From: Naegleria lovaniensis
Taxonomy: Eukaryota > Heterolobosea > Eutetramitea > Acrasida > Naegleriidae
Direction of reading: 5' to 3'
Assembly (NCBI RefSeq): GCF_003324165.1
Contig: NW_025407854.1
Coordinates: 306,711 to 370,710 of the forward strand
Length of the DNA stretch: 64,000 nucleotides
Both the position numbers and the translations under genes were made by a program. Positions 8,994 through 39,562 of the stretch are shown piece after piece. The first letter of the stretch is position 1; each line of letters opens with the position of its first letter. The notes below the pieces were generated by a model. The model worked only from the letters and a program-made list of their open reading frames with translations, was not told where the DNA came from and did no database searches.

Positions 8994-9364
8994 TTTTTTT
9001 TGAAAGGAATCGAAACAAGCCTTTCCAAAACTTGAATTTGTTGAGCCTTGTCTTAAACAAACATAAACTCAATAGTGCTTGGGGAGAAGGGGACATTAGT
9101 TTCAATCGGGCGTCAAAAGCAACTTGGTTGATTATCATGTTGGTCAACAAATCAAAAAAAAGCTGACACTAATCATCTCCTACACGTCTTTTTTCCGATA
9201 ACAAAACATTTTACTTGATATTTCTTCGAGTTGAGTGACTATTGAAACAAACAACTTGTTTTCAAAGACATTCATGTACATTCATCTCTCACATCGTTGT
9301 TGTCGTCGTCATTAAAAACAATTTTACAACTTGATTCAATACCTCCAACAAACTTGTCATCATC
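8994..9364. promoter_or_regulatory. divergent promoter region
   Basis: 371 bp between the start of the TFIIIC90-like gene (minus) and the 7TM-RGS gene (plus); it must hold both 5' UTRs and promoters. No TATA element can be assigned with confidence in such AT-rich DNA. An A8 run directly precedes the minus-strand start. No RNA gene seen. Confidence 0.5.
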
Positions 9365-11163
9365 ATGACCAATAATTTCACCATTCTACAATTAACAGCT
9401 CCTATACCTTGGAATTTTCATTCCACAGACATGATGGATCAATGCAATTATGCAAATCCTCTTTTCATTTCCCGAATTAACAAAATACCTCCTTCTAATT
9501 TTTATCGAATTTACTTGTTAGGAACAATATTTGGATTGGGACTCATTCTCTATGTTGGTGCTTTTGCGTTAGTGATTGCTCGGAGGAACAAATCTCCACT
9601 GAGGGATCGTTCCGTATCACTTTTATTGATCTCGGGAATTTCTGGAGCTTTTGGACTTGCCTACATGTATTCTCGATTGTATTTTGACTTGATTTTAGTT
9701 TGTCCCATTACGTATTATATGGTGGGATTGGTTCAATTTTCATATTTTCTTCCATACTTGTTTCGTTGTTTTAGGACTATCATGCAATATAAATTAGCTC
9801 AAGCACAAGCTGCCATCATGGAAGAGCAAGAGATTTCTACGGAGGATCAATTCAATGTGAGGGATTTGAATAGTTATTATTATGGAGTGGAATCCATGAC
9901 CAGTAGTGGAGATCGTAGAAGACGGCGAAGGAGAAATAGAGACATTCGTGACAATGCATTTCTCTCAAGTGAAAATAGTAATGAATTGAATATCACTGAA
10001 AGGCCGTTGAATTACGACTTTTTGTCATCTAAAAAGAGAATTACACAAGGAAATATGATTTCTGAATTGGCCAAGAATGAAAAATATTCTCGACTCATTA
10101 GCAATCAATATTACTTCTCTGAGGGATTTCTTCTCATAATTATGACCATCATTCTCTTAATATGGACGATGATTATTTTTGTGGCACACATGCTTGTCAT
10201 GTTTGGATTTAATCTTATTAATCCGGTTTGTCAAAAGAGATGTAACGAACATGAGGGCGTCGCTTTGCGAGTATTCGTTTGTGTGACAATTATTCTCATT
10301 ATTCCATTTGCATTTTTATTATTCAAAATGAGGAAGATTAATGACGATTTTTCGATTCGAAAAGAAATGACGGTCATGCTATGTTTTAGCATTATTGTAG
10401 TGGCTATTCCTTTAATTGTGCTGTTAGCAGTTCCTGGCCAGGTAAGGAATTATTGTGTGAAAATTATTTCACAATTGCAATCAACAACTACTATAATGAC
10501 ATGAATGATTTATCGCAAATTGAAAAATAGTTTTGGCCTGATCAACCTACTATTGGATATTTTCTGGGAGTGGAAGTTGTGGGTAGCTTCATTATTTCAA
10601 TTATTTATCCTCTGGGTTCAACATGGGTTAGAGATATTGACATGTCAAAATTTAACATTTTCAAAAGATGGAAAAAACGCGGATCCCATTCTGACCACAT
10701 GATCACCACTTCAAACATGATCTTAAACGAATCGATCCATGCATCAACTATACCCTCTGAAAGTTCCATACCATTTTATGAAAAATTTGAATTTTATTTA
10801 CAAAACAACGATGCAAGAGAGATTTTCAAACAATTCCTCGTGAGAGAGTTACACGTTGAAAGTCTGATGTTTGTCACCGAACTGCAGTATTTTAAGAGTT
10901 TGGATGAAGAGGACGAATTACTTGGGGAGATTGCAAAAACTCTTTTCGAAACCTATGTCAGAGATGGAGCACCTTTTGAAGTGCACATTTCACACAAAGT
11001 GAGAAATGAATTAATCAGCAATTTAGAACGACCTTCTCTGAGTATTTTCAACAAGGCTGAACAGGAGGTGTTAAAAAATATGGAAACTCAAAGTTTTTCT
11101 CGATTCAAAAAATCAAATTTATTTTCAACATTTACAGAAAGATTTAAACGAAATAACTATTGA
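9365..11163 (+). CDS. seven-transmembrane receptor fused to an RGS domain
   Basis: Two exons, 9365-10441 and 10531-11163, joined across an 89-nt intron (GTAAGG...AATAG), encode 569 residues. Hydrophobic segments are visible at about residues 48-70, 82-103, 109-135, 253-280, 298-320, 335-356 and 369-390, giving seven membrane spans. A long loop between spans 3 and 4 carries a polybasic RRRRRRNR stretch. After span 7 comes an RGS fold (about 427-545) beginning FYEKFEFYLQNNDAREIFKQF, with LYSIF-type helices and the late SFSRFKKSNLF. RGS domains speed GTP hydrolysis on G-alpha, so the protein can couple ligand sensing at the plasma membrane to switching off its own G protein. The same layout occurs in plants (AtRGS1) and protists. 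The ligand is unknown. Confidence 0.88.
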
Positions 11164-12759: not shown

Positions 12760-15138
12760 TTATTGTTGAACAAACTTGGATTGAGCAACAAATGCATCAA
12801 TCATGCTAGAGCTTGAGATTGGATAATTGACCAGCTGAACTGTCTTTCCATCCTCAGAGAGAGTGGTGTGAGGCTGAATAAATACTTTTCTTGGTTGTTT
12901 CTTGTCTAATACAATCTTTCTCATTTTCACAAAGTCTTCAGGTACTGAGGTGTACTTGTTGAAAAGTTCCGTTGCTGCATTCTTGTCACCGATGGACTTG
13001 TAGACGTTAATCTTCAAAAGATAATCATAAATGGCCTTCTTTCCAACTGTTTCAATCTTGGTCTTGTCCAAAGAGAGCTGTAAATCATTATCTAATTGCT
13101 TAATTTCAACCAGACCATTTCCAGCTTCAAGAAGAACTCTAAGAATGGAATAACGAGCACGCATGTGAGCTTGGAGCCAAGCGCCTGTATCAGGATTATA
13201 AAATTGCAAACCCATTAATCCTGCTCTCACCATATTAAGCCAATTCACATAAATGATTTTATCAGCTTCTTCTCCTTCAAATCCACAAATCTTTAGAATT
13301 TCACGATCCAAACACAAGTAAATGCCAACACACTCAGCTCGACATTCTTCATAGGCGTTACTAATTTCACCAATGACAGAATTGAAGTTCTCTCCAGGTT
13401 TGTAGAATGTAGTCACAGGCTGTTTAGTGATTGGATTAATGACATTGGCAATGTCAGATTCTTTCAATAAGGAACCGCTTCCGTGACCCAAAAGTTCATG
13501 AAGAATGACTTGAACTTCGAATGATTTACCTTTGTAATCAGTGTAAATTTTCTTATCTTCCTCATTTAAAAATGTAATTTCCTCACCAGCAGCAACTGGA
13601 GCACCTAAAACATTCCCCAACGAAACGTTCTTGAAACCATGTTGGTCTCGAATGTTGAAGGAGTTTGGAATGTTGATTCCAGCTGGGAGACCAGAGCTTG
13701 TGAATGTAATGACTTCCAGACTGTTGTTGTTGATATTGGGATTGAATATCGAATTCGACGAGTAGTTCAGTAATGCCATGTAAATTGTTCATGTCACTGA
13801 TGTGTCAATAGAATTTCGAACATACCTTGTAAAGTCAGGTTTTGTAAATTTTGAAACTTCGAATGGTTTTCTGTCACCGTTTGTGCTGTCTTCATTCCAT
13901 GGTAATCGTGCAATGAATTTTTCAGCATTGTCTACAATTGTTTGAGCTTTTTGACTTGCAACCTTGTTCACGACAGCGACGAATCCCTCAAATTCAGCTC
14001 TTACTCTCAAAGGGTCTCTATAAGATTCAATGTATCCAATATTTGTCTCAATAATTGGTCCCTTATCCTTGACCCAAGAAATTTGAGAATCTAAGAAATC
14101 TTGACCATTGCCCGAGTCAAAGAATTGAGTATACTTTCTCAACATTTCTTTTTGGTGCTCGTTCGCAGCAAATGGCAAAGCCTTTTCCAAGTTGTCACGA
14201 ATATTCGCCATCTGCTTACTAAAGTCACCATATGTAACAGTAATGGTAAGATCTTGGAAAGTGTGAGTGGTTGGATCTTTTGGTTTTGCACTTGCGGTCT
14301 TGAGCTCAAATTTCTTGTCACCAGTCTTGAATAGTCTTGTGTGTTCAATATGAATTTGTTGTTGTTCCATAAACGTCTTTACCAACTCTGCCTCTTGTTC
14401 TGTGACGTCTCTAGTGTAATAGGTCGAGTTTCCAAACCCCAATTCCAGCACATTGCTCTCCAAACTGTACATGGCATTTTTGATCTTTTCAAAAAGCTCA
14501 ATAGCTTGTTGATTCTCACTTGCCTTAACTACCTTTTCAAACTCCTCGGGTTCACATCTTGGAATGAATTTACTGTCCCCAAAACTCAAATAATTACCCA
14601 TATTTCCAAAGAATGAAACTGCATAATTAATAACAGCCTCATAATCATGTTCAGAAACTCCAGCCTTCAACGACTTTTCTTTCAATCCACTTGCTTCAGC
14701 TCCTCCTTCAAAAAGCAAACAGAGTAACCGATAAATATCAGGACTCTCCTCCGAAACTTGATGAAGAACAATAGGTGTTCCAGCAATGGCTGCCCGAGAG
14801 AAGTAGTGAGCATATAATTTTTGATCATCAGTGAGAGCATTCCAAGCCTCTTCAAGCTCCAATCGTGTAACTGGAATTTTCTCGGGACAAACGTAGTGTT
14901 TTAATTTCTCATCTTGCAAGATGGATTGCACTTGTTGGACCATTGTGTGGTTGTTGATTGAATAACGGCAACTGAAAAATCTTGATTGTTGAATGGAAGA
15001 ATACGAGCTTTCCTTTTTCTTGTGTTGAGAAATTGAGTGCAATGAGAGGATTACTTGAGAAGAGGAAGAAACAATTCCGACGCGTCTACTTGCAAGATTT
15101 TTTTTAGAATGAATTCCAATAGTACGAAAAAGGGACAT
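12760..15138 (-). CDS. DPP3: dipeptidyl peptidase III (M49 metallopeptidase)
   Basis: Two exons on the minus strand, 15138-13826 and 13720-12760, joined across a 105-nt intron (GTATGT...CAACAG). The join produces PDFTSLEVITFTSSG, which matches the human protein at the same place. The predicted 757-residue protein has the family's zinc motif HELLGHGSG and, about 55 residues later, EECRAE with the third zinc ligand Glu. It removes dipeptides from the N-terminus of short peptides, normally in the cytosol. The first 65 residues are an extra basic, Ser-rich leader (SKKNLASRRVG) resembling a mitochondrial presequence; an internal Met at residue 66 (MVQQVQSIL) would give the usual cytosolic length. 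The outer start has the A-run context. Confidence 0.95.
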
Positions 15139-15290
15139 TTTTTACATCAGAAGGTGATAAATTCGAGAAGATATCAAAGACCTTCAACAATGTTTACTGA
15201 TCGGAAGAGAAGTGTTCTTTTCTTGAAATGTTTCAACTACTTGTTGAAAGCTTTGTTGAAAACAGTATTTCAGAACTCTCTCAAAAAAAA
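15139..15290. promoter_or_regulatory. short bidirectional promoter
   Basis: Only 152 bp separate the DPP3 start (minus) from the next plus-strand start at 15291. Both ATGs are preceded by A runs on their own strands. It must serve both genes unless one promoter extends into the neighbour's coding region. Confidence 0.5.
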
Positions 15291-18694: not shown

Positions 18695-20053
18695 TTATGA
18701 AATTCGTTCAAGTGCTCCGTGTTTAAACCGTTCAATCACTTGCCATTCCGTATTCGATTCTGTTATAAAATACTTTCGAATCATTAAGCGTTTAAGAGCT
18801 AAGGCGTCATCTCCTGCAAGAACCAGAGCTTCATCAATCAATTTCAATAACTCAGAGTCCGGCATGAATGCCTGCATTTCGGTATCGACCAGAAAAGCCA
18901 TCGCCTTTTTGGCTCCAAATTTTTCATAGCATCTTTTAAATGTTTCCTCAGCCTTCTTGTGATCGTTCATTAATATATGGCATTCAGCAATGTTGGTGTA
19001 AGCGTCGACCTGTACATGTGGGAAATTTGATAGTTCCAAGCATTTTTCAAAATCCTTTATGGATTCCTCTAATTGTCCCAGTTGAGCATTGGCATCTCCT
19101 CTGTTTTGGAAAACGAGTGCATGTTGAGTAAAGTGAGAATGTCCAATATTATATTGTTCAATTGCCGATTCGTATTTTCCAACTGAATAAAAACTACCTC
19201 CAATATTGTTATAGAGTCCTGCCAGCTGATAGGGTTCCAATTTGGGAAGATAATTTGTCTCAAAATGGTACATCAGGGCCTTCTTGTAATACTGAATTTC
19301 TAGATCAAATCGTTCCTGATCAGAGTGTAATATTCCAAGCCAATTTAAAATTGCATAGAAACTTTCATATTTTGTTAAACAGTACGAGGGAGAGGATTCC
19401 AACGTTTTTTGGTGCCTTTGCGACAATACATATTGTAAAGCTTTTTTAAAATAGTAAAAGCTGGACTCATAATTTTTCTCATACAGACAAACTGAGGCAC
19501 TAAAAATACAATACCAATAATCGTGGTTGATATTGTTAATGACCATGTCCTTTGCGCCTTCTTGCTGTTTTAAATCTCCGTTGATTGGTGTGGAAATGGT
19601 TGTAGAATTTTCACCAAACAATTTTGCATGATTATTATACGAGTATACTGTAAAAAACATTCCTAGTTTTAACGTTCTTAATTGGAGGCCATTGAAGCCT
19701 AACGACCAGTATAGAGATGACTTTCTAAAGTATGCATGCCCAAAAAACGGCAATGTTTTGATTGCTTCATTAATGTGAAGCTCGGCTTTATCGAAATTAT
19801 TCCTAGCAATTTCCAACTCAAATAAATAGATTAATTGATTATATTTTTCAAGTGTTGTTTTCGGAACGATCATGGGAAGTATTCTTGGATGGAGAGTTAC
19901 ATCAGTGTCGTCATCATCTTCATGCTGATCCACAAACTTGTAATAATCTTGAATCGTAAGTTTGTGTTCTTTGGCCATCAGACCGTTCAATGATGATATC
20001 GATAACAGTTTCTCGTCATCATCGCCGATTGAACGGATTGCTTCGTCTTGCAT
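18695..20053 (-). CDS. tetratricopeptide-repeat protein
   Basis: A 452-residue protein from the ATG at 20053, which follows an A/G-rich KKKK-coding run; a longer frame to 20152 would overlap the upstream gene's coding end, so the shorter start is preferred. An acidic N-terminal part (HEDDDDTD) is followed by about eight TPR-like helix pairs, clearest in LAGLYNNIGGSFYSVGKYESAIEQYN, LVFQNRGDANAQLGQLEESIKDFEKCLE and AYTNIAECHILMNDHKKAEETFKRCYE. TPR arrays are protein-docking surfaces; no partner or complex can be named. No catalytic domain, signal or membrane segment. It lies tandem with and 46 bp downstream of the stanniocalcin-like gene. Confidence 0.78.
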   Translation of the reverse strand: MQDEAIRSIGDDDEKLLSISSLNGLMAKEHKLTIQDYYKFVDQHEDDDDTDVTLHPRILPMIVPKTTLEKYNQLIYLFELEIARNNFDKAELHINEAIKTLPFFGHAYFRKSSLYWSLGFNGLQLRTLKLGMFFTVYSYNNHAKLFGENSTTISTPINGDLKQQEGAKDMVINNINHDYWYCIFSASVCLYEKNYESSFYYFKKALQYVLSQRHQKTLESSPSYCLTKYESFYAILNWLGILHSDQERFDLEIQYYKKALMYHFETNYLPKLEPYQLAGLYNNIGGSFYSVGKYESAIEQYNIGHSHFTQHALVFQNRGDANAQLGQLEESIKDFEKCLELSNFPHVQVDAYTNIAECHILMNDHKKAEETFKRCYEKFGAKKAMAFLVDTEMQAFMPDSELLKLIDEALVLAGDDALALKRLMIRKYFITESNTEWQVIERFKHGALERIS

Positions 20054-20099: not shown

Positions 20100-20958
20100 T
20101 TATTCAATGTATTGATCCAATTCATTGACTTCATCAAATGGCAACACGTCAATCATGCAATTCTTCAAAACTCCCATTATTTGCTTCATGCTTCTCATGG
20201 AGAACAAATCCTTAGCATCCACTGTGGTCAACACATTCTTCACATCGAAAACATTTCTAATCTTACAAATGCTGTAAGTTTGTGAATCGACAGGACTCAC
20301 CGAATCTGTGTAACATCCAGGATGAGAATTGAAAGCATAATCAGTAATTCTCTCACAGGTCCATCCCTGAGAAATCTTGCTCACGACATTATCCATCAAA
20401 GCTTGTTGAAGACAATGACCCGTAGAGGCAACCCACTTTTTCGAGTAATCGCTCTTGTAGACTCCTTCTTGGAGTGATCTAAAGAATGCACTACAATACT
20501 TGAGGCCATAATTGATGGCATAACCAGAAGAACCACATGGCATAATCTTCTCCAAACAATCCGTGTAGAAGGAGCACTTGTCGTATTGTTGAATGGTTCG
20601 GAGGCAGGTGGCTTTCAATTCAGGAGTGAGGAGAGAGGGTGCTGAAGAACGTGCTTCACCACGAGTAAGAGCAGCCTGAGTGTAGCTATTCATGAGGAGG
20701 ATAGCTGCCGCAACCATCAATACAAGAAGGACGGAAGACTATTGATGATGAAATTGTGGATGATGAATGATTGAAATAACAGTATTCAGAATTATGAAAT
20801 CGAATCCGTGTCCGTAAATGAAGAGTGGATTACATAATGATGAAATTGATGGAATAGAAGAGTGCATGAGAGTTATATGAGATCCGTAAATATTTACATG
20901 TTGTGTGTGAGTTTGATGATAAATCGTCGTCATCCACACAAAAAAAACATACCTTCAT
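20100..20958 (-). CDS. secreted stanniocalcin-like protein
   Basis: Two exons on the minus strand: 20958-20953 (only ATG AAG) and 20738-20100, across a 214-nt intron (GTATGT...CAATAG). Splicing gives MKSSVLLVLMVAAAILL, a textbook signal peptide, and a 214-residue protein. The mature part has exactly ten cysteines with spacings close to stanniocalcin-1: 9, 5, 6, 13, 26, 18, 13 and 15 residues between successive Cys, then a final Cys near the C-terminus; human STC1 has 8, 4, 5, 8, 23, 15, 13 and 6 by my recollection. The YTDCLEKIMPCGSSGY and HPGCYTDS segments also resemble the family. Stanniocalcins are secreted calcium/phosphate regulators in vertebrates and have reported protist homologues of unknown role. 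Sequence identity outside the cysteines is low. Confidence 0.72.
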
Positions 20959-21322
20959 GTTTTCGTTGTGATTTTTTGAATTTCATTTGAAGAATTTTTG
21001 GTTATAACGAGAGCAAGCAATCTCTCTATTCCCAAACTTGATCTAGGCTCAACAACATTCACAGCAAGCCAATTTATTTCGTCCTCATGGGTAGAACCCC
21101 TATCAGTGCTTATGAGTGAAAGATTAGCAACCTGGATTTACACCCCAACAAAAAAATATGAAATCGAGTTGAGGGGTTCATTTTGATGGATGTATTAATA
21201 CAAGATTGATTTGGTGATCAATCTTTCAACTACTATTCATTCAGATAAATTATTTTGAAAGAATGCATGTTTTTCGATGAACTCTGAACTGATCATCAAT
21301 TGCACAAATTCAGGCAAGAAAA
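20959..21322. promoter_or_regulatory. divergent intergenic region
   Basis: 364 bp between the stanniocalcin-like start (minus) and the DUF4116 gene (plus). No gene, RNA or repeat recognised; a short plus-strand frame at 20998-21186 lacks an ATG in good context and looks random. Confidence 0.4.
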
Positions 21323-23731
21323 ATGTCAGAATCCAACTCTCAAGCTAGCCTGTGGCTGATTGATTTTTGTCCTATCCCTCATTCATCTTCCCATCAACTA
21401 CTCACTCGAAAATTTCTACATCAAATTAAAGGTTTTACCAAATGGTACCGAGAACGAGAAGCGTATTTGAGTCATCTAGAATTACCACTCCGGATCGAAT
21501 TTTTAGATGATCATGAATGTATAGAAAGCCGATTATACCATCACAATCAAGCATTGTTTCGACTTCACAAAAATTCTGTCCATAATCCTTTCCAGGATAT
21601 TACCAAGGGACTTGTTACAACACTACAAGACGATCATGGTTTATCATCAACTTTTCATGAACTTTTTAAAAGCAACAAAAAGGCATGGAGAATTGCAGTA
21701 TTCAGAGCTTTGTTATTCAACAACTGGCAAATACTTGATTATGTTTCAAAACATGAGCTCTTGGACGATTGTTTCAGAAATGACTTGAGATATTTATTGA
21801 ACTTTCAAGCAAGCTGTCCTGTGGCCTTGGATCCAGATAATCGAGATCTTGCCATGAGAACCATCAAATCATTTCCTATGGATTTGAGGTATGCATCAGA
21901 AAGGTTACAAAACGATAAAGAAGTTGTCTGGAAAGCAATCAAGGAAAATGCAGAGGCTCTTCAATTTGCTTCACACGAATTGAGAAATGATAAAATTACT
22001 GTGATCAAAGCGTTGATTTCTGGTAATGTACAAGTGATTAATTATGCTTCCGATGAGTTGAGAAATGATTCTGAACTACAAGCTGCAGTTGCCATGATTT
22101 CGAAACATGGTGTGAAAAATCTAGTATTTTCATTGAATGATGCAATGCCCGAAGTGAGAAATAACCTGTATTTGACCTACATGTCTATCATGTTAAAAGA
22201 ACACAATTTGAAATACGCTACAGACAAATTCAAGAGCGATAGAGAGTTAGTCAAACTAGCTGTACAGCACCAACATGATATATTTCAATTTGCATCATTA
22301 GAGCTTAGAACAGATTGTGAATTTGTGTTAGAACTGTTACGAAAACATCCCAGTGGCCTCAACGATTTTGTTTGCCGAGATCTCAGCAGAGACCAAACAT
22401 TCAATATTCAATGGATTAACATTGCAAGAACTGAATTGAAGCAGGAAATAGTGTTTCGCACTTGGTTTCTCAATAATTTTGCTCGTGATCGAGATATGGT
22501 CTGCTATTATTTTGACCCACTGTCATCATTAAAATGTGACTATTGGATCGCTGTGGAGTTGGTGAAGAATTATTACACGCAAGATCGAGAAATTTTGTCG
22601 AGAATTTTGAGAAAATGTGGAAGTGCTTTGAAATTTATTTCTAACGATTTTAAAAACGATAGAGATATTGTGTTAAATGCTGTGACTAGTTCAGGTTTTG
22701 CTCTGCAATATGTCTCTGGTTCATTATGCCATGATAGAGAGGTGGTTATTTGTGCATTGAAAAATGAAGGCAACGCTCTGCAATTTGTTTCAAAAGAGCT
22801 CACCAATGATAGAGAACTGGTATTGACTGCAGTGTTACAGAATGGAAATTCACTGCGTTACGCAAGAGAAGAATTTAAAAACGATAGAGAAATAATCTTG
22901 ACTGCTCTTCGCAAACCAACAAATATTTTAGGAATTATTGAGAACATTTCTGAAGACATGCGAAATGATCGAGAAATTATGTGGGATGCCGCTATTAAAA
23001 GCAACGGCTCGGCTCTACCATTTGCTTCTGACCAATTGAAGCAGGATCGACAATTTGTGCTAAATCTCGTAGAAAGAGATGCCTCTTTTCTCAAATACTT
23101 GCCTCAAGAATGGCGAGATGACCGTGAAATCATATTGACTGCTGTAAAGCAAGATGGTTCATTCATCACATATGCACCACTAATATTGCAAAATGATAGA
23201 GAAATCATTCTTCAAGCTGCTTTAGGGTGTCTTTCAGCATCTACGGAATTACAGAACAACAGAGAAATTGTGTTGCTCAAAGTGAAACAAGACGCTCGCT
23301 TTTTTAGTGAAATATGTTATCTTTTTGATAACGATCGAGAAATTGTGTTGGAGGCAGTCAAACAAGACGCCTCTCTGTTTTGGAACACCTCTGAGGAATT
23401 GGCTTTTAACGACAATACCTTATTTCTGGAGGCATTTAAACGTTCAGGCGATTTATTTTTCCATAAAAACATTGAACGGTCATATTTTAATGAGCTAAAG
23501 AGATTAAGACTTGATTTTGAATATCATGGATGTGATATACCTGAGAGATTTCTTGTGACCCAAAATCCAGTCTATTTATTAGAGCATGACGGACTCTATT
23601 TAGTGAAAAATAATGATCAAAAAACATGGAATCAATATCTATTCGATCATACAGCAGAAAGTAACGATTGGAAAATAATTTTTAATGCTGAAATTGATAG
23701 TTTTTCGTTGACCCGCCAGTTGGAGAAATAA
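21323..23731 (+). CDS. DUF4116 repeat protein
   Basis: Single-exon 802-residue protein made largely of imperfect units of about 24 residues, clear from about residue 185 to 720. The core is an 'L(K/R)NDREIVLTAV' helix followed by 'G.AL.FAS.EL', for example ALQFVSKELTNDRELVLTAV and ALPFASDQLKQDRQFVLNLV. This is the DUF4116 repeat (PF13475), greatly expanded in some protists; each unit probably forms two helices of a solenoid. The unit near residues 520-540 has a short insertion, and the last ones are degenerate. The N-terminal 170 residues and the last 70 have no recognised domain. No signal peptide. Function is unknown; a protein-interaction scaffold is the cautious inference. Confidence 0.88.
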   Translation: MSESNSQASLWLIDFCPIPHSSSHQLLTRKFLHQIKGFTKWYREREAYLSHLELPLRIEFLDDHECIESRLYHHNQALFRLHKNSVHNPFQDITKGLVTTLQDDHGLSSTFHELFKSNKKAWRIAVFRALLFNNWQILDYVSKHELLDDCFRNDLRYLLNFQASCPVALDPDNRDLAMRTIKSFPMDLRYASERLQNDKEVVWKAIKENAEALQFASHELRNDKITVIKALISGNVQVINYASDELRNDSELQAAVAMISKHGVKNLVFSLNDAMPEVRNNLYLTYMSIMLKEHNLKYATDKFKSDRELVKLAVQHQHDIFQFASLELRTDCEFVLELLRKHPSGLNDFVCRDLSRDQTFNIQWINIARTELKQEIVFRTWFLNNFARDRDMVCYYFDPLSSLKCDYWIAVELVKNYYTQDREILSRILRKCGSALKFISNDFKNDRDIVLNAVTSSGFALQYVSGSLCHDREVVICALKNEGNALQFVSKELTNDRELVLTAVLQNGNSLRYAREEFKNDREIILTALRKPTNILGIIENISEDMRNDREIMWDAAIKSNGSALPFASDQLKQDRQFVLNLVERDASFLKYLPQEWRDDREIILTAVKQDGSFITYAPLILQNDREIILQAALGCLSASTELQNNREIVLLKVKQDARFFSEICYLFDNDREIVLEAVKQDASLFWNTSEELAFNDNTLFLEAFKRSGDLFFHKNIERSYFNELKRLRLDFEYHGCDIPERFLVTQNPVYLLEHDGLYLVKNNDQKTWNQYLFDHTAESNDWKIIFNAEIDSFSLTRQLEK

Positions 23732-31112: not shown

Positions 31113-31707
31113 ATATTGTAACCAACGCCCACAAGTTGGCAGGTCTGCTTGTCAAAAAAATGCACAAATGGCGAATTGTTATTCAACTAACTGGTTCCGA
31201 ACCTGTACTTCCATCATGATTGGCTGATGATGCTATCAATTCTTTAAAAATCTCGGACCACATTAATTGGTTCACTCTCTTTATTGTATCAACACTTGCA
31301 ATTTGGTTAATCAAAGGCTTTTCAAATCATGAAAACTCGTATCATCGTCGCCAACTAATCTTGTTAACAGATGATACGACTTGGTACATGAATCCATCAA
31401 ATAATGGAAGTTAAAACCCATTTCTGAAAGAACACGATGGAAGTTCAATAATGGAAATCGTGTTCTTGCAGAAATGGGTTTTAACTCCAGTTTGGCCCAA
31501 AAAAACAAGGGCGCTAAAATTTACTGTGGATTCAGCGAGCTTGTAACTAACTCGTACCGAAAAAATAGAGGACATCAATACCTTTGAATCGTCATCATAC
31601 GCATTATTCGAGTTCAACTTGATAACTTGATCAACAACTTTACTTGAAAATTTTGTGAAGTTTTACATCTTTGATCTCAATAAGCCTTATTCATACCTCT
31701 GAACAAG
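31113..31707. other. intergenic region with a strong hairpin
   Basis: 595 bp without a credible gene. The frames here (31220-31414 plus, 31311-31617 minus) owe part of their openness to the inverted repeat at 31410-31485 and have no domain. The downstream part is the promoter/5' UTR of the first sensor paralogue. Confidence 0.5.
31410..31485. repeat. 29-bp-arm inverted repeat (hairpin)
   Basis: Left arm 31410-31438 and right arm 31457-31485 are reverse complements with one mismatch in 29 bases, separated by an 18-base loop. The arms contain AAAACCCATTTCTG and its complement. No coding frame or flanking target duplication accounts for it. Confidence 0.95.
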
Positions 31708-34451
31708 ATGACCAGGATTTTCCCTTCGGAAAGCACGGGGAGTATTGTAGTAACTGGAGCAGGTCATTCGTCGCATCCAACAACAAATTTGCCCAATAAG
31801 AATTATAGGATACCTCAAAACGGAGAAGCGAGCACGACCAACATGTCTGTGGCAGGATCAACCTCATCGTTTCAGATCATCAAGCACTCGAATACTCCGG
31901 TTAATGAGTCCATACAAGTAATGCCAGGAGAGCCTCTGAACAGTGATCATATGATGAAAAGTGAAATTAAACAATCAACCAACAAACTGCATGAGGAGTT
32001 GGAATCAGGCTCATGGTGGGGATGTATACCTCTTCGTCTTTTCATTAGTGCAATGATAGCATTATTAATTGTTGTGAGTTGCGTTTCTATTTGGGTGACC
32101 ACATTTGTAGTGTCGAAACAAGCGATTGAAAATTTGGCAAATGATGTGATTGGAGTGAGCAATCAAAAGATTTTATCATACTTGGATGCAGTCATCAATC
32201 CTTTGGGCAAAATGTCAAAAGCAATGGCAGCTGATTACAATTGGGGAATTGCCAATGAAAACAACTTTCGAAAGTATCTCTTTCCAAAATATTATTTCTT
32301 GGGAGCCACAAGTTGTGGATACTTTTTTGGATATCCTTCAACCAAGTACACTTATTCAATCACTGGAGTTGGTTCCAAGGCTTATTTGGTTTATTCTTAT
32401 CAAACTCCAGGTTTCATTGGAACCATCAGAGATACTGTTAACAACAAGACTGGTGCTGTTATCAAATATAATAGCACAATAGACTATACCCCCTTTTTTT
32501 CAGCTCAACAAGATTATTACAATTCAACCATTGAATTATGTAATAGATTGGGAATTGAGGGAGTTTATGGACCACCCTACAAAGCATTGAATTCGAGTAT
32601 GGCAATTTATCATTCATCAGTGGTTTATGATCCAGTATTGTATGCCTCTGGAATTAAGAAAGCAGTTGGAGTGACAAGAATCAACATGTCATTGGGTGCA
32701 ATTGTTTCATATTTGAGCAAAATAGTGTTGATTGGAAGAGGATATTGTTTAGTTTCACAAACGAATGGAATGATGATTGGAGGAAGTATCAACACTCTTG
32801 CAGGAGATGGAGAAACGAATTTACACTTGTTCAATATTACAGACCGACATGCAGGAAAACTCATGAGATCACTTTTCATGCTGTACGGTAATGACCAAAA
32901 TATGATTCCACCAGTTTCATACATTAGAGACAGCGGTGTTTCTTACATTGTCTCATCCTCAAAATATACTATGGACAATATGAAATGGAACGTATATCTA
33001 ATCGTATATGAGGAGGATATATTCCACTCTCTGATTGTAGCGTCAGGTATTTCAATTGGCGTTTTTGCAGCTGTAACAATTGTGGGTGTGATTCTCAGCG
33101 TTGTTTTAGGTAGTATTATTGCCCGGCCTCTTAAAAAGTTGGAAGAACAGTTTTCTTTAATCAAGGTATTGGACTTGAATGAGATAAGTCTTTGGCAATC
33201 ACCGTTCAAAGAGATCAACAATATTTTCCAGAGCTTGGGGGACACGGTGGTGTGGTTAAAGGAAATTAAGACATTCATTCCTGACTATGTGTTTGAACAA
33301 ATTCAAACAAGTAAGAGCCTCTCTGTAAAATCCATTGAAGTTACCAAAGTGAATTCAGTAGCTTCCAACATGAACAAAGCGTCTATTTCCTCTCTTTCTC
33401 AATCGCATCTTGGAGGATCCAGGCTTTTCAAGTCCTTGAGCAATTCAGGTGGAAAATTGGGGAAAACTATTTTTCAAATGGGACTGCATACAAATCTTTG
33501 TTGTGTCATTCATGTGATTTTCAAAGGTTTTACGAATGTGGAGTCATCTTCAGAAAAAGCTGAATTGTTTACATCGGCTATTTCAAACATCACACCACTC
33601 ATCAAATTATACAAAGCTAATATTCAAATATTAACAGACTTTGAATTTCAAATAGTAATTACTGGTTCCCGTAGCGACATCAAGGTACCTGTAAAAGGGT
33701 TGGAGTGTGCTTTGAAAGTTGTAAAAACTCTGGAATCGATCAACCAAACTCAATTTATTCCTCGCGTTGGGGTGAGTGTGAGTGAAGCAGACATCGGTAA
33801 CATTGGAACCAAAAATTCAAGGTTTTTCGCAATAGGTATGTTTGTCAATCTGTAGCATTGTAATTTTTTTAAACATTTCCTTTGTACAATATCGCAACAT
33901 TTACAGTTGGTAAATGTGTGAAGGAGGCTTCTAAAATGGCAAAGGTAGCAGTTTTGTTTAACTTGTCTGTCGTTGCTGATTCCTCATGTTTTTCCAGCCC
34001 GTTATCGAGAGAGAAATTTATTGCACGACCCATAGATCGCTACCGAAAAGATAAGCTTTCAGACATTGAATCAATTTGGACAGTTTTAGACGAGAAGAAT
34101 CATGAAAAAGATGAGTGGTTGTACGAATTAGAAAATTCGAAACGCAACAACACATTTGACAAGTTCTTGAACGCTTTTTGTATTTTCACAAAAGAATTTT
34201 GGGAGAAAACAGAACCCGATTATTATCCTGAAGCATTGGATCATAATTTGGATATTCTGAAAGAGTACGCTCATTTAGTGGAAGATCATTCCTTACCTCG
34301 ACTCATCTCTGTATTAACTGCTGTTGCCACCACGTGCTCTCCACAAAATATTCCTTTTGTTTTGACGAATTATTCATCCGAATTGGGATGTGAGTATAGA
34401 GGCTTGCTATTGGACACACAACCTGTAGCAAATCTTCATATTGAGATGTAA
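31708..34451 (+). CDS. two-TM sensor with extracellular domain and degenerate cyclase domain (paralogue A)
   Basis: Exons 31708-33835 and 33907-34451 across a 71-nt intron give 890 residues. A Ser/Thr-rich cytoplasmic N-terminus (1-108) precedes TM1 (about 110-134), a long extracellular part (135-440) with several Asn-X-Ser/Thr sites and the look of a dCache-type sensor, TM2 (441-471), and a HAMP-like stretch beginning ARPLKKLEEQFSLIK. At about 595-760 lies a class III cyclase-like domain: VIHVIFKGFTNVESSSEKAE, a middle ILTDFEFQI strand, RVGVSVSEADIGNIG and, across the splice, GKCVKEASKMA. In true cyclases the first metal Asp is three residues before GFT; here it is Ile, so catalysis is doubtful. 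The C-terminal 130 residues are shared with paralogue B. The ligand is unknown. Confidence 0.85.
32100..32432 (+). repeat. 333-bp block identical to 37072-37404
   Basis: By eye this segment of paralogue A is base-for-base identical to 37072-37404 in paralogue B, while sequence just upstream (TM1) and just downstream diverges even at silent sites. A second near-identical block follows at about 32517-32812, matching about 37490-37785 with about six differences. Confidence 0.93.
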
Positions 34452-36231: not shown

Positions 36232-36673
36232 GGGTTTAAAGCATCACCACATATTTAACCCATACCGCTTAATTGTCACACTTAGAATCTGTTGCTATTT
36301 GTACGTTATAATTTTATTTCATATTTGGTGATACATAGTTTACCTCAAACATTCTTTGAAGTAAAACAAGAATTACAAGATCTGACATACAAAAACGTTT
36401 CGGATAGCAGTGACATCAAAAGCCATCACACATAGAGAGATAATCCAAAAGTTACGATTGCATCGAGCGAGATGAGAGCTATCAGTAAGATGATTTGAAT
36501 ATCCATTGTTTGATTTGTGTTGCTTTCCGTTCGTTACTTTTAAAAAAGAATTGAGTCGCCCAGTCACTCCATCAAGGTTTTAAAAGTCGAGTGACTTAAT
36601 CTCTCAGTAACCACCAATATTCCATTTGAAAAATTGTATTTACCTCCGAGTGTTGCATGACATATCTTTCATC
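36232..36673. other. intergenic region
   Basis: 442 bp between the hydrolase and sensor paralogue B. No gene, repeat or RNA recognised. An in-frame ATG at 36626 lies upstream of the chosen start of paralogue B, but the residues it adds have no counterpart in paralogue A. Confidence 0.4.
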
Positions 36674-39562
36674 ATGACACGAATATTTCCAGTCACAGGA
36701 AGCTCCGACTCCTTTCCCTCAAATCATCACCCTCATCACAATTCCCGAATGGCACAATATTCGGCAGATAATTCCATCCCATCAAAGCCTCCGGAAACGA
36801 ATGCCAATATAACCAATGAATCACTACGAGTGTTCACGGGAGAGCTGTCAAGTACTCAACACCACAGCCAGCATACTTCGAAAAGTTCTGCAACGTCACC
36901 TCCTGCCACTAAAGAAGGTCTAAACCCACTGGATTTTAACCAAACGGGTGATGAAGATGGGATCTCCATCGACGCACCTCTTCTTGTCCAAGGCATCATA
37001 CCACTTCGTGGGTTCCTTATTGTGATGGTAGCATCCTTGATGGTCATGAGCTGTTTTTTCATATGGGTCAGCACATTTGTAGTGTCGAAACAAGCGATTG
37101 AAAATTTGGCAAATGATGTGATTGGAGTGAGCAATCAAAAGATTTTATCATACTTGGATGCAGTCATCAATCCTTTGGGCAAAATGTCAAAAGCAATGGC
37201 AGCTGATTACAATTGGGGAATTGCCAATGAAAACAACTTTCGAAAGTATCTCTTTCCAAAATATTATTTCTTGGGAGCCACAAGTTGTGGATACTTTTTT
37301 GGATATCCTTCAACCAAGTACACTTATTCAATCACTGGAGTTGGTTCCAAGGCTTATTTGGTTTATTCTTATCAAACTCCAGGTTTCATTGGAACCATCA
37401 GAGACACTGTCAATAATAAGACAGGCGAAGTGATAACAGTGAACAGCACGATCGATTACACGCCCTTCTTTTCAGCACAGCAATATTATTACAATTCAAC
37501 CATTGATTTATGTAATAGATTGGGAATTGAGGGAGTTTATGGACCACCCTACAAAGCATTGAATTCGAGTATGGCAATTTATCATTCATCAGTGGTTTAT
37601 GATCCAGTATTATATGCCTCTGGAATCAAGAAAGCAGTTGGAGTGACAAGAATCAACATGTCATTGGGTGCAATTGTTTCATATTTGAGCAAAATAGTTT
37701 TGATTGGAAGAGGATATTGTTTAGTTTCACAAACGAATGGAATGATGATTGGAGGAAGTATCAACACTCTTGCAGGTGATGGAGAAACAAATTTACACTT
37801 GTTCAATATTACTGATCGAAATGCTGGTCCTTTAATGCAAGCATTATTTGCCAAATATGAGTTTGATTCAAACAATATTCCACCACTCACTCATGTTTCA
37901 TTGAATGGAATTTCATACATTATTTCTCACTCCAAATATACCATAGACAATTTGAAATGGGATGTCTATTTGATTGTGTATGAGGAAGATATTTTACATT
38001 CTGTTATTGTGACTTCTGGCATTTCGGTTGGGGTGTTTGTGGGGACTACACTGTTGGGACTAGTGCTGAGCATCGTTCTCGGATCAATCCTAGCGCGACC
38101 ATTGAAAAAACTCGAAGAACAATTTTCCTTAATCAAAGTTTTGAATTTGGATGATGTGAAATTTTCTACTTCCATTTTCAAAGAAATTCACAACATTTTC
38201 AGAAGTTTGGAAGAAACTCTAATTTGGTTAAAGGAAATTAAGTCGTTCATTCCAGAACATGTATTGGACGAAATTCAGGGTACAGACCCTAAATTATACT
38301 CTCCGCAACTCTTAACGAGTCGACAACACACCTCCATGAGATCAAGTGTTACTAAGAATTCTGTCTCATCGTGGCACTCGGCAGGAAGAGACTCCAACAG
38401 CAGCAAGCGACCCAAATTCCTTCGGGCATTAAGCAAAGCAAGTGGGGTTGGAAGCGGAAGGTCAAACTTTGGAATGAGTTCGCTCTTCCAGATGGGTTTA
38501 CAGAAGAAATTATGTTGTGTGCTGCATGTCATATTCAAAGGTTTTGAACATGTCGAATCGGCAGCAGAGAAGGCTGAATTATTTACAGAAGCACTCGCTT
38601 CGATTGCTCCACTGATTAAGATCTACAAAGCTTCTCTTCAGATATTGACCAATTTTGAGTTTCAGATTTATGTCACTGGAAATCTCAATGATGATGAATA
38701 CAAAGTTCCAATTAAGGGAATTGAATGTGCTCTGAAAATTGTCAAATCTCTAGAATTATTGAATGCTATCAAGTACATGACACGAATTGGAGTGAGTATG
38801 AGCGAGGCGCAAGTTGGTAATATTGGAACGAAAAGTTCAAGATATTTCACTACGGGTAAGTTTGAAAACTCAAAATTCCATTTGATTGAACTAATGCACC
38901 GTTTGAATCACATTAATCTCGCATAATTGCAATGGCCCACCCCAACAGATGGACCATGTGTAAAAGATGCCACCACCATGGCAACACTTGCACGACTTTT
39001 CAACCTTTCCATTGTGACAGATGCGTCATGTTTTGATGGTACACTTTCCAATGAGAGATTCATTGCAAGACCCATTGATCGATTCCGCAAACCTAAATCC
39101 TCAGAAATTGAAACCTTGTGGACTGTCACAGACGAGAAGAATCTTGAAAATGCCGAATGGCTCTACGAATTGGAGAATTCTAAAAGAAACAACTCCTTCG
39201 AACGATATCATGACGCCTTTCAAGGACTTTTCACACACGAGTTTTGGGACGGCATTGCTCCTGAGAATATTCTTTCCACTCTTGAAGATCAATTACATGT
39301 CCTCCAAGAGTATTCGAGCACTTTGGATGATCCCTCACTTGTACGATTAATTTCTTCGCTTTCTTCGATTGCCTCCTCATATACAGCCACTCCACAACAA
39401 ATTCCTTTTGCGCTCAATAATTATCACTCACTTCTGGGAAGCGATTTGAAAGGAGTCGTGATTGATTCCCCTCAACCCAATTCAGAAGATGCAAACGATG
39501 CCACACAACCACTACAGGGTCTCTTAATTTCAGTGACTGATATTATTCCAATTGAACACTAA
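36674..39562 (+). CDS. two-TM sensor with extracellular domain and degenerate cyclase domain (paralogue B)
   Basis: Exons 36674-38855 and 38949-39562, across a 93-nt intron placed exactly as in paralogue A, give 931 residues. The start is set at MTRIFPVTGSS because paralogue A begins MTRIFPSESTG. Architecture is the same: Ser/Pro-rich cytoplasmic leader, TM1 ending CFFIWVSTFVV, extracellular sensor, TM2 (GVFVGTTLLGLVLSIVLGSI), HAMP-like ARPLKKLEEQ, a longer Ser/Arg-rich linker and the cyclase-like domain (VLHVIFKGFEHVESAAEKAE, RIGVSMSEAQVGNIG). The first catalytic Asp is again replaced by Ile. The sensor domain is almost identical to A while both cytoplasmic ends have diverged, suggesting the same ligand but different output, or gene conversion of the sensor only. 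Confidence 0.85.
37072..37404 (+). repeat. 333-bp block identical to 32100-32432
   Basis: Partner of the block in paralogue A, 4,972 bp away in direct orientation. Its sharp ends inside coding sequence are typical of a gene-conversion tract. Confidence 0.93.

Follow-up and report, generated by a model that had tools for sequence, protein, structure and literature searches.

We describe a minus-strand gene in a 64,000-nucleotide stretch of the Naegleria lovaniensis genome (hereafter the window; GC content about 37%) whose product is predicted to be a secreted protein with ten cysteines spaced much as in stanniocalcin (STC). Based on the order of the cysteine gaps and on residue similarity in the segments between them, the protein is probably either a very distant member of the stanniocalcin family or a protein with the same disulphide-locked, all-helical fold. 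We favor homology to stanniocalcin, and only as a remote relationship, on the strength of these sequence comparisons. The reading that we prefer is that of a secreted STC-fold protein whose partner would be something other than pappalysin. Because the profile test failed, the candidate is not filed here as an established stanniocalcin.

Gene Structure and Predicted Protein

The original prediction placed the gene at positions 20100–20958, which proved exact, from the minus-strand ATG at 20958 to the stop codon at 20102–20100 (Table 1). Re-derived from the DNA, the spliced candidate comprises 214 aa; the splice is predicted, and exon 2 together with the stop codon extends from 20738 to 20100. 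Upstream, the exon-2 frame is closed by a TAG that itself forms the predicted splice acceptor, and the predicted splice therefore gives the better leader. An alternative, unspliced start at 20717 is possible and would give a shorter leader.

Relatives of the candidate were sought in collections of viral contigs and of prokaryote genome contigs and none was found, as would also be the case for a frame that is open by chance and is not a gene. Such a chance frame is scarcely credible, however, given that the open frame spans 212 codons, that a canonical intron connects the start codon and its lysine to the leader, that the ten cysteines are evenly used, and that a neighbor on the same strand lies 46 bases downstream. 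We conclude that the candidate is a real, intron-containing gene of the Naegleria type, with a predicted splice.

Table 1. Coordinates of the candidate gene and of the neighbor that limits it.
Feature	Position in the window	Strand	Basis or remark
Exon 1, ATGAAG (M K)	20953..20958	-	splice predicted
Predicted intron, 214 b, GTATGT...AATAG, canonical	20739..20952	-	sequence-based
Exon 2, first part: remaining hydrophobic leader, residues 3-24	20673..20738	-	cleavage site by eye
Mature chain of 190 aa with ten cysteines; possible stanniocalcin fold	20103..20672	-	sequence
Stop codon	20100..20102	-	sequence
TPR-repeat protein, 452 aa; outside the feature, marks its 3' limit	18695..20053	-	same strand, downstream

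The leader, MKSSVLLVLMVAAAILLMNSYTQA, reaches a top 12-residue hydropathy mean of 3.3 from residue 5 (residues 5–16), and every 12-residue segment from residue 41 onward stays at or below 1.35. The signal peptide that had been called clean is best described as predicted, since it was judged from hydropathy and by eye, with cleavage placed after residue 24 by eye as well. If cleaved there, the mature chain has 190 aa, a mass of 21.4 kDa, and a pI of 6.2. It contains exactly ten cysteines, again as claimed, at residues 47, 57, 63, 70, 84, 111, 130, 144, 160, and 196, and it ends 18 residues past the last of them (C10). A search of the candidate protein for N-x-S/T sequons found none. The gene is single copy, with one match in its own genome (one candidate scored).

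Cysteine Spacing

How closely does the cysteine pattern follow that of stanniocalcin? The nine gaps are 9, 5, 6, 13, 26, 18, 13, 15, and 35 in the candidate and 8, 4, 5, 8, 23, 15, 13, 6, and 34 in STC1; those of STC2 are identical to the latter once its extra C120 is omitted. The differences from STC1 (1, 1, 1, 5, 3, 3, 0, 9, and 1) sum to 24. Seven of the nine gaps differ by at most 3, in agreement with the claim that most spacings fall within a few residues of STC1, and the other two, the fourth (13 vs 8) and the eighth (15 vs 6), are longer in the candidate by 5 and 9. The human STC1 core used in these comparisons was validated by its match to PF03298 at 1.2e-90 (302.7 bits) and to the STC2 chains in the PDB at about 1e-32.

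A summed difference of 24 was reached in 5 of 2,000,000 random placements of cysteines over an equal span, in 7 of 4,000,000 nine-gap draws from pooled genomic cysteine gaps, in 135 of 4,000,000 draws when gaps were restricted to 40 or fewer, and in 144 of the 362,880 reorderings of the candidate's own gaps. The pool consisted of 1218 real cysteine gaps from ORFs of at least 120 aa in 264 kb of this genome (the window plus positions 1–200000 of contig C34). That the candidate has a better-than-chance, STC-like order of gaps is confirmed under several nulls.

The stanniocalcin family was itself picked after the cysteine pattern had been seen, and 44 of 229 ORFs in the 264 kb, the candidate included, carry at least ten cysteines. 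When cysteines may be skipped freely, a 147-aa ORF with 18 cysteines (eight of them skipped) ranks first at a cost of 14, followed by the candidate (24) and by an RCC1-looking ORF (35). At a cost of 5 per skipped cysteine, the candidate ranks first (24), with the others at 35 and 36. Because other ORFs fit nearly as well or better, the spacing by itself carries less weight than the random placements imply, and we rejected it as proof of stanniocalcin, two clearly unrelated ORFs lying near or below the candidate's cost. The STC-like pattern is unusual, not unique.

Residue Similarity between the Cysteines

The residues between the cysteines provide a second test, because they were compared independently of spacing. 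In this anchored test, the ten cysteines were fixed, each intervening segment was aligned, and the outcome was compared with that of shuffles. Across six tests, z ranged from 2.9 to 3.8, a similarity matched by 1–15 of 5000 shuffles; it holds separately against STC1 and against STC2, and reversed segments fall close to the shuffle mean in all three anchored comparisons. The positive control, STC2 against STC1, gave a z of 12. Anchored identity amounts to 34 of 123 columns with STC1 (24 of 113 without the cysteines) and to 28 of 125 columns with STC2 (18 of 115 without them). Local features common to the candidate and STC1 include CLE after C3, CY at C8, and K-x-[FW]-V-x5-C before C6.

Without anchoring, the similarity is near chance. 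The semiglobal alignment score was reached by 148 of 2000 shuffles for STC1 and by 1130 of 2000 for STC2, the local alignment score by 217 and 988 of 2000, and in unanchored alignment the reversed candidate scores as high against STC1 as the forward one (24 vs 23). Free alignment with MAFFT lined up only some of the candidate's cysteines with those of STC. Free hhalign placed residues 100–198 on the C-terminal half of STC in the anchored register, keeping K-x-[FW]-V, C6, CY at C8, C9, and C10, at a P of only 0.09 (probability 0.6%).

The near-chance unanchored scores favor an alternative in which the candidate is a cysteine-rich, secreted, helical protein specific to the Heterolobosea and unrelated to STC, its spacing the product of chance and of selection by a reader familiar with STC. 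Moderately close spacing in other ORFs points the same way, as do the single copy in the genome, the lack of relatives among the viral and prokaryote contigs, and the lack of any family match beyond chance ones at E≥0.18. We regard this alternative as an appreciable possibility that falls short of being probable. In a retest, the candidate reached an anchored z of 3.69 (2 of 5000 shuffles), above every one of 24 control ORFs (mean 0.15, sd 1.13, maximum 2.50), which had at least ten cysteines and a cost of at most 200, the candidate excluded; the two ORFs closest in spacing gave residue z values of −2.02 and −0.34. Against the alternative, choosing a family by spacing would not create this anchored residue similarity, which holds for STC1 and STC2 taken apart.

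Profile and Genome Searches

The HMM search against the stanniocalcin Pfam family, proposed as a check of the original prediction, did not bear it out: the whole protein matched 0 Pfam families at E≤10, three sub-pieces gave no match to PF03298, and the candidate lies below the gathering threshold of that family (23 bits). Searches of Pfam and NCBIfam gave only chance matches to unrelated families at E≥0.18, and phmmer against PDB sequences gave 0 matches. Two findings together, no profile match and a different disulphide topology, had been named as telling against a stanniocalcin homologue; the first of them was obtained. With spacing and anchored residues in favor and the Pfam profile against, the claim of a stanniocalcin homologue stands as plausible.

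The candidate's own genome (30.69 Mb in 97 contigs) was also searched with stanniocalcin queries. At E≤10, the sole match to PF03298 (E 0.2, one candidate scored) was rejected as an unrelated 821-aa frame, which by eye we take to be a gamma-tubulin-complex protein. This search says little, because one candidate was scored and 0 of 14 control genomes gave a match. The STC1 core likewise had one match in the genome, at E 0.03 and 22% identity with three internal stops, which we dismissed as chance; the frame beside it is presumably, by eye, a succinate dehydrogenase flavoprotein.

Predicted Fold and Disulphides

AlphaFold models built on a single-sequence alignment had mean pLDDT values of 35.8 and 38.7, too low to use. 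Both contain helices only, without strands, and may fit the helical bundle of STC2, which we count as weak evidence. A Foldseek search with the model of pLDDT 36 returned 19 matches at E≤10, the best at E 1.3 and none of them STC2. The STC2 bundle is described with 11 helices in one account (PMC9579167) and with nine in another (PMC9780223).

The disulphides of STC2 are listed as C56–C70, C65–C85, C76–C125, C109–C139, and C146–C181 in a table of the latter source (PMC9780223, Table 1). By alignment, the candidate's pairs would be C47–C63, C57–C84, C70–C130, C111–C144, and C160–C196, at separations of 16, 27, 60, 33, and 36 residues as compared with 14, 20, 49, 30, and 35 in STC2. Five disulphides in the STC2 order (C1–C3, C2–C5, C4–C7, C6–C8, and C9–C10) would then lock the helical bundle.

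The ten cysteines match those of STC2 (PDB 8a7d, 8a7e, and 7y5q) and occur in the same order as the ten of STC1; like STC1, the candidate is predicted to be secreted. Unlike STC2, it lacks C120, which forms the covalent bond to PAPP-A and in whose place K123 is aligned; STC1 is likewise without C120. The candidate also lacks C197–C205 and C211 of STC2. The STC1 core carries an eleventh cysteine that has no counterpart in the candidate, and it is an eleventh cysteine that serves the covalent dimer of vertebrate STC1 and STC2. It also differs from STC1 in having no N-glycan sequon and no long C-terminus. The STC2 dimer, as described in PMC9579167, is formed by helices between E169 and C211 and by a C211–C211 bond; this three-helix region is truncated in the candidate. 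With 18 residues after C10 and no eleventh cysteine, a covalent dimer of the STC type is therefore not expected.

Possible Function and Wider Context

As its hydropathy suggests, the leader would route the candidate into the secretory pathway. We envisage that the protein would be stable outside the cell or in a vacuole and would bind another protein there; given its lack of an eleventh cysteine, an N-glycan site, and a long C-terminus, it may be monomeric or form a loose dimer. Our guess is that the binding partner could be another secreted or surface protein.

STC1 and STC2 are described as inhibiting the metalloprotease PAPP-A (PMC9579167, PMC9780223). In mammals they do so by way of an exosite, and the candidate might by that precedent be a true stanniocalcin that inhibits a pappalysin protease as in animals. 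We consider this very improbable. A search of the candidate's own genome for Peptidase_M43 (PF05572) gave 0 matches at E≤0.01, exon by exon, so that an intron-split gene could escape it; 2 of 14 control genomes were positive. Where STC2 has C120 and K104, the candidate has K123 and A106, and V63 of STC2 falls in a gap; the dimer interface from E169 to C211 is cut short as well. Since pappalysin was not found and the candidate has lost two of the contact positions of STC2, the partner would be something else, and a role as a pappalysin inhibitor is unlikely.

The original prediction had raised an autocrine signal or a calcium/phosphate-handling protein. Only the analogy with the fish hormone and the predicted leader speak for these functions, and neither sequence nor neighborhood contains a pointer to ion handling; we regard them as improbable. 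The nearest genes encode TPR, DUF4116-repeat, pirin, and glutathione S-transferase proteins and give no hint of a pathway. The 812-aa frame adjoining the candidate (21293–23731) has 12 DUF4116 matches (PF13475, E 1.3e-135).

What is the relevance of a stanniocalcin-like protein in an amoeba? Roch and Sherwood reportedly described stanniocalcin homologues of unicellular eukaryotes in 2011, which are said to have been recognized mainly by a signal peptide and their ten cysteines. Because homologues from single-celled eukaryotes were already mentioned with the original prediction and are reportedly in print, the present find is a modest one; the library searched contains no paper with both stanniocalcin and Naegleria, and none on protist STC was among the papers listed. 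If the preferred reading of a remote STC-fold protein is true, a discoban amoeba has such a secreted protein without a detected pappalysin. We speculate, tentatively, that the fold is older than animals and originally had another partner, with protease inhibition and mineral regulation as later uses. To our knowledge, no receptor has been firmly established for the stanniocalcins of vertebrates. In a non-animal cell that can be cultured and in which no pappalysin was detected, a minimal version of the protein, single-copy and apparently non-glycosylated, would make the original role of the fold addressable.

Other Features of the Window

Two adjoining paralogues on the plus strand (31684–33855 and 36611–38926) share a block of 750 bases, 717 of them identical (32098–32847 vs 37070–37819), with diverged flanks; from the sequence, the block has the appearance of gene conversion or of a strongly constrained part. 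Neither paralogue matched a Pfam family at E≤0.001 or 0.01. At 9335–11163, a frame resembling a seven-helix receptor (7tm_3, E 8.2e-8, 32.7 bits against a cut-off of 33.5) precedes an RGS domain (PF00615, E 3.7e-18) on the same strand, and the two may belong to a single 7TM-RGS gene interrupted by an intron. Finally, two abutting minus-strand frames occupy 12760–15141, with what seems to be an intron or a change of frame near 13789; together they resemble, by eye, a dipeptidyl peptidase III with its HELLGH motif.
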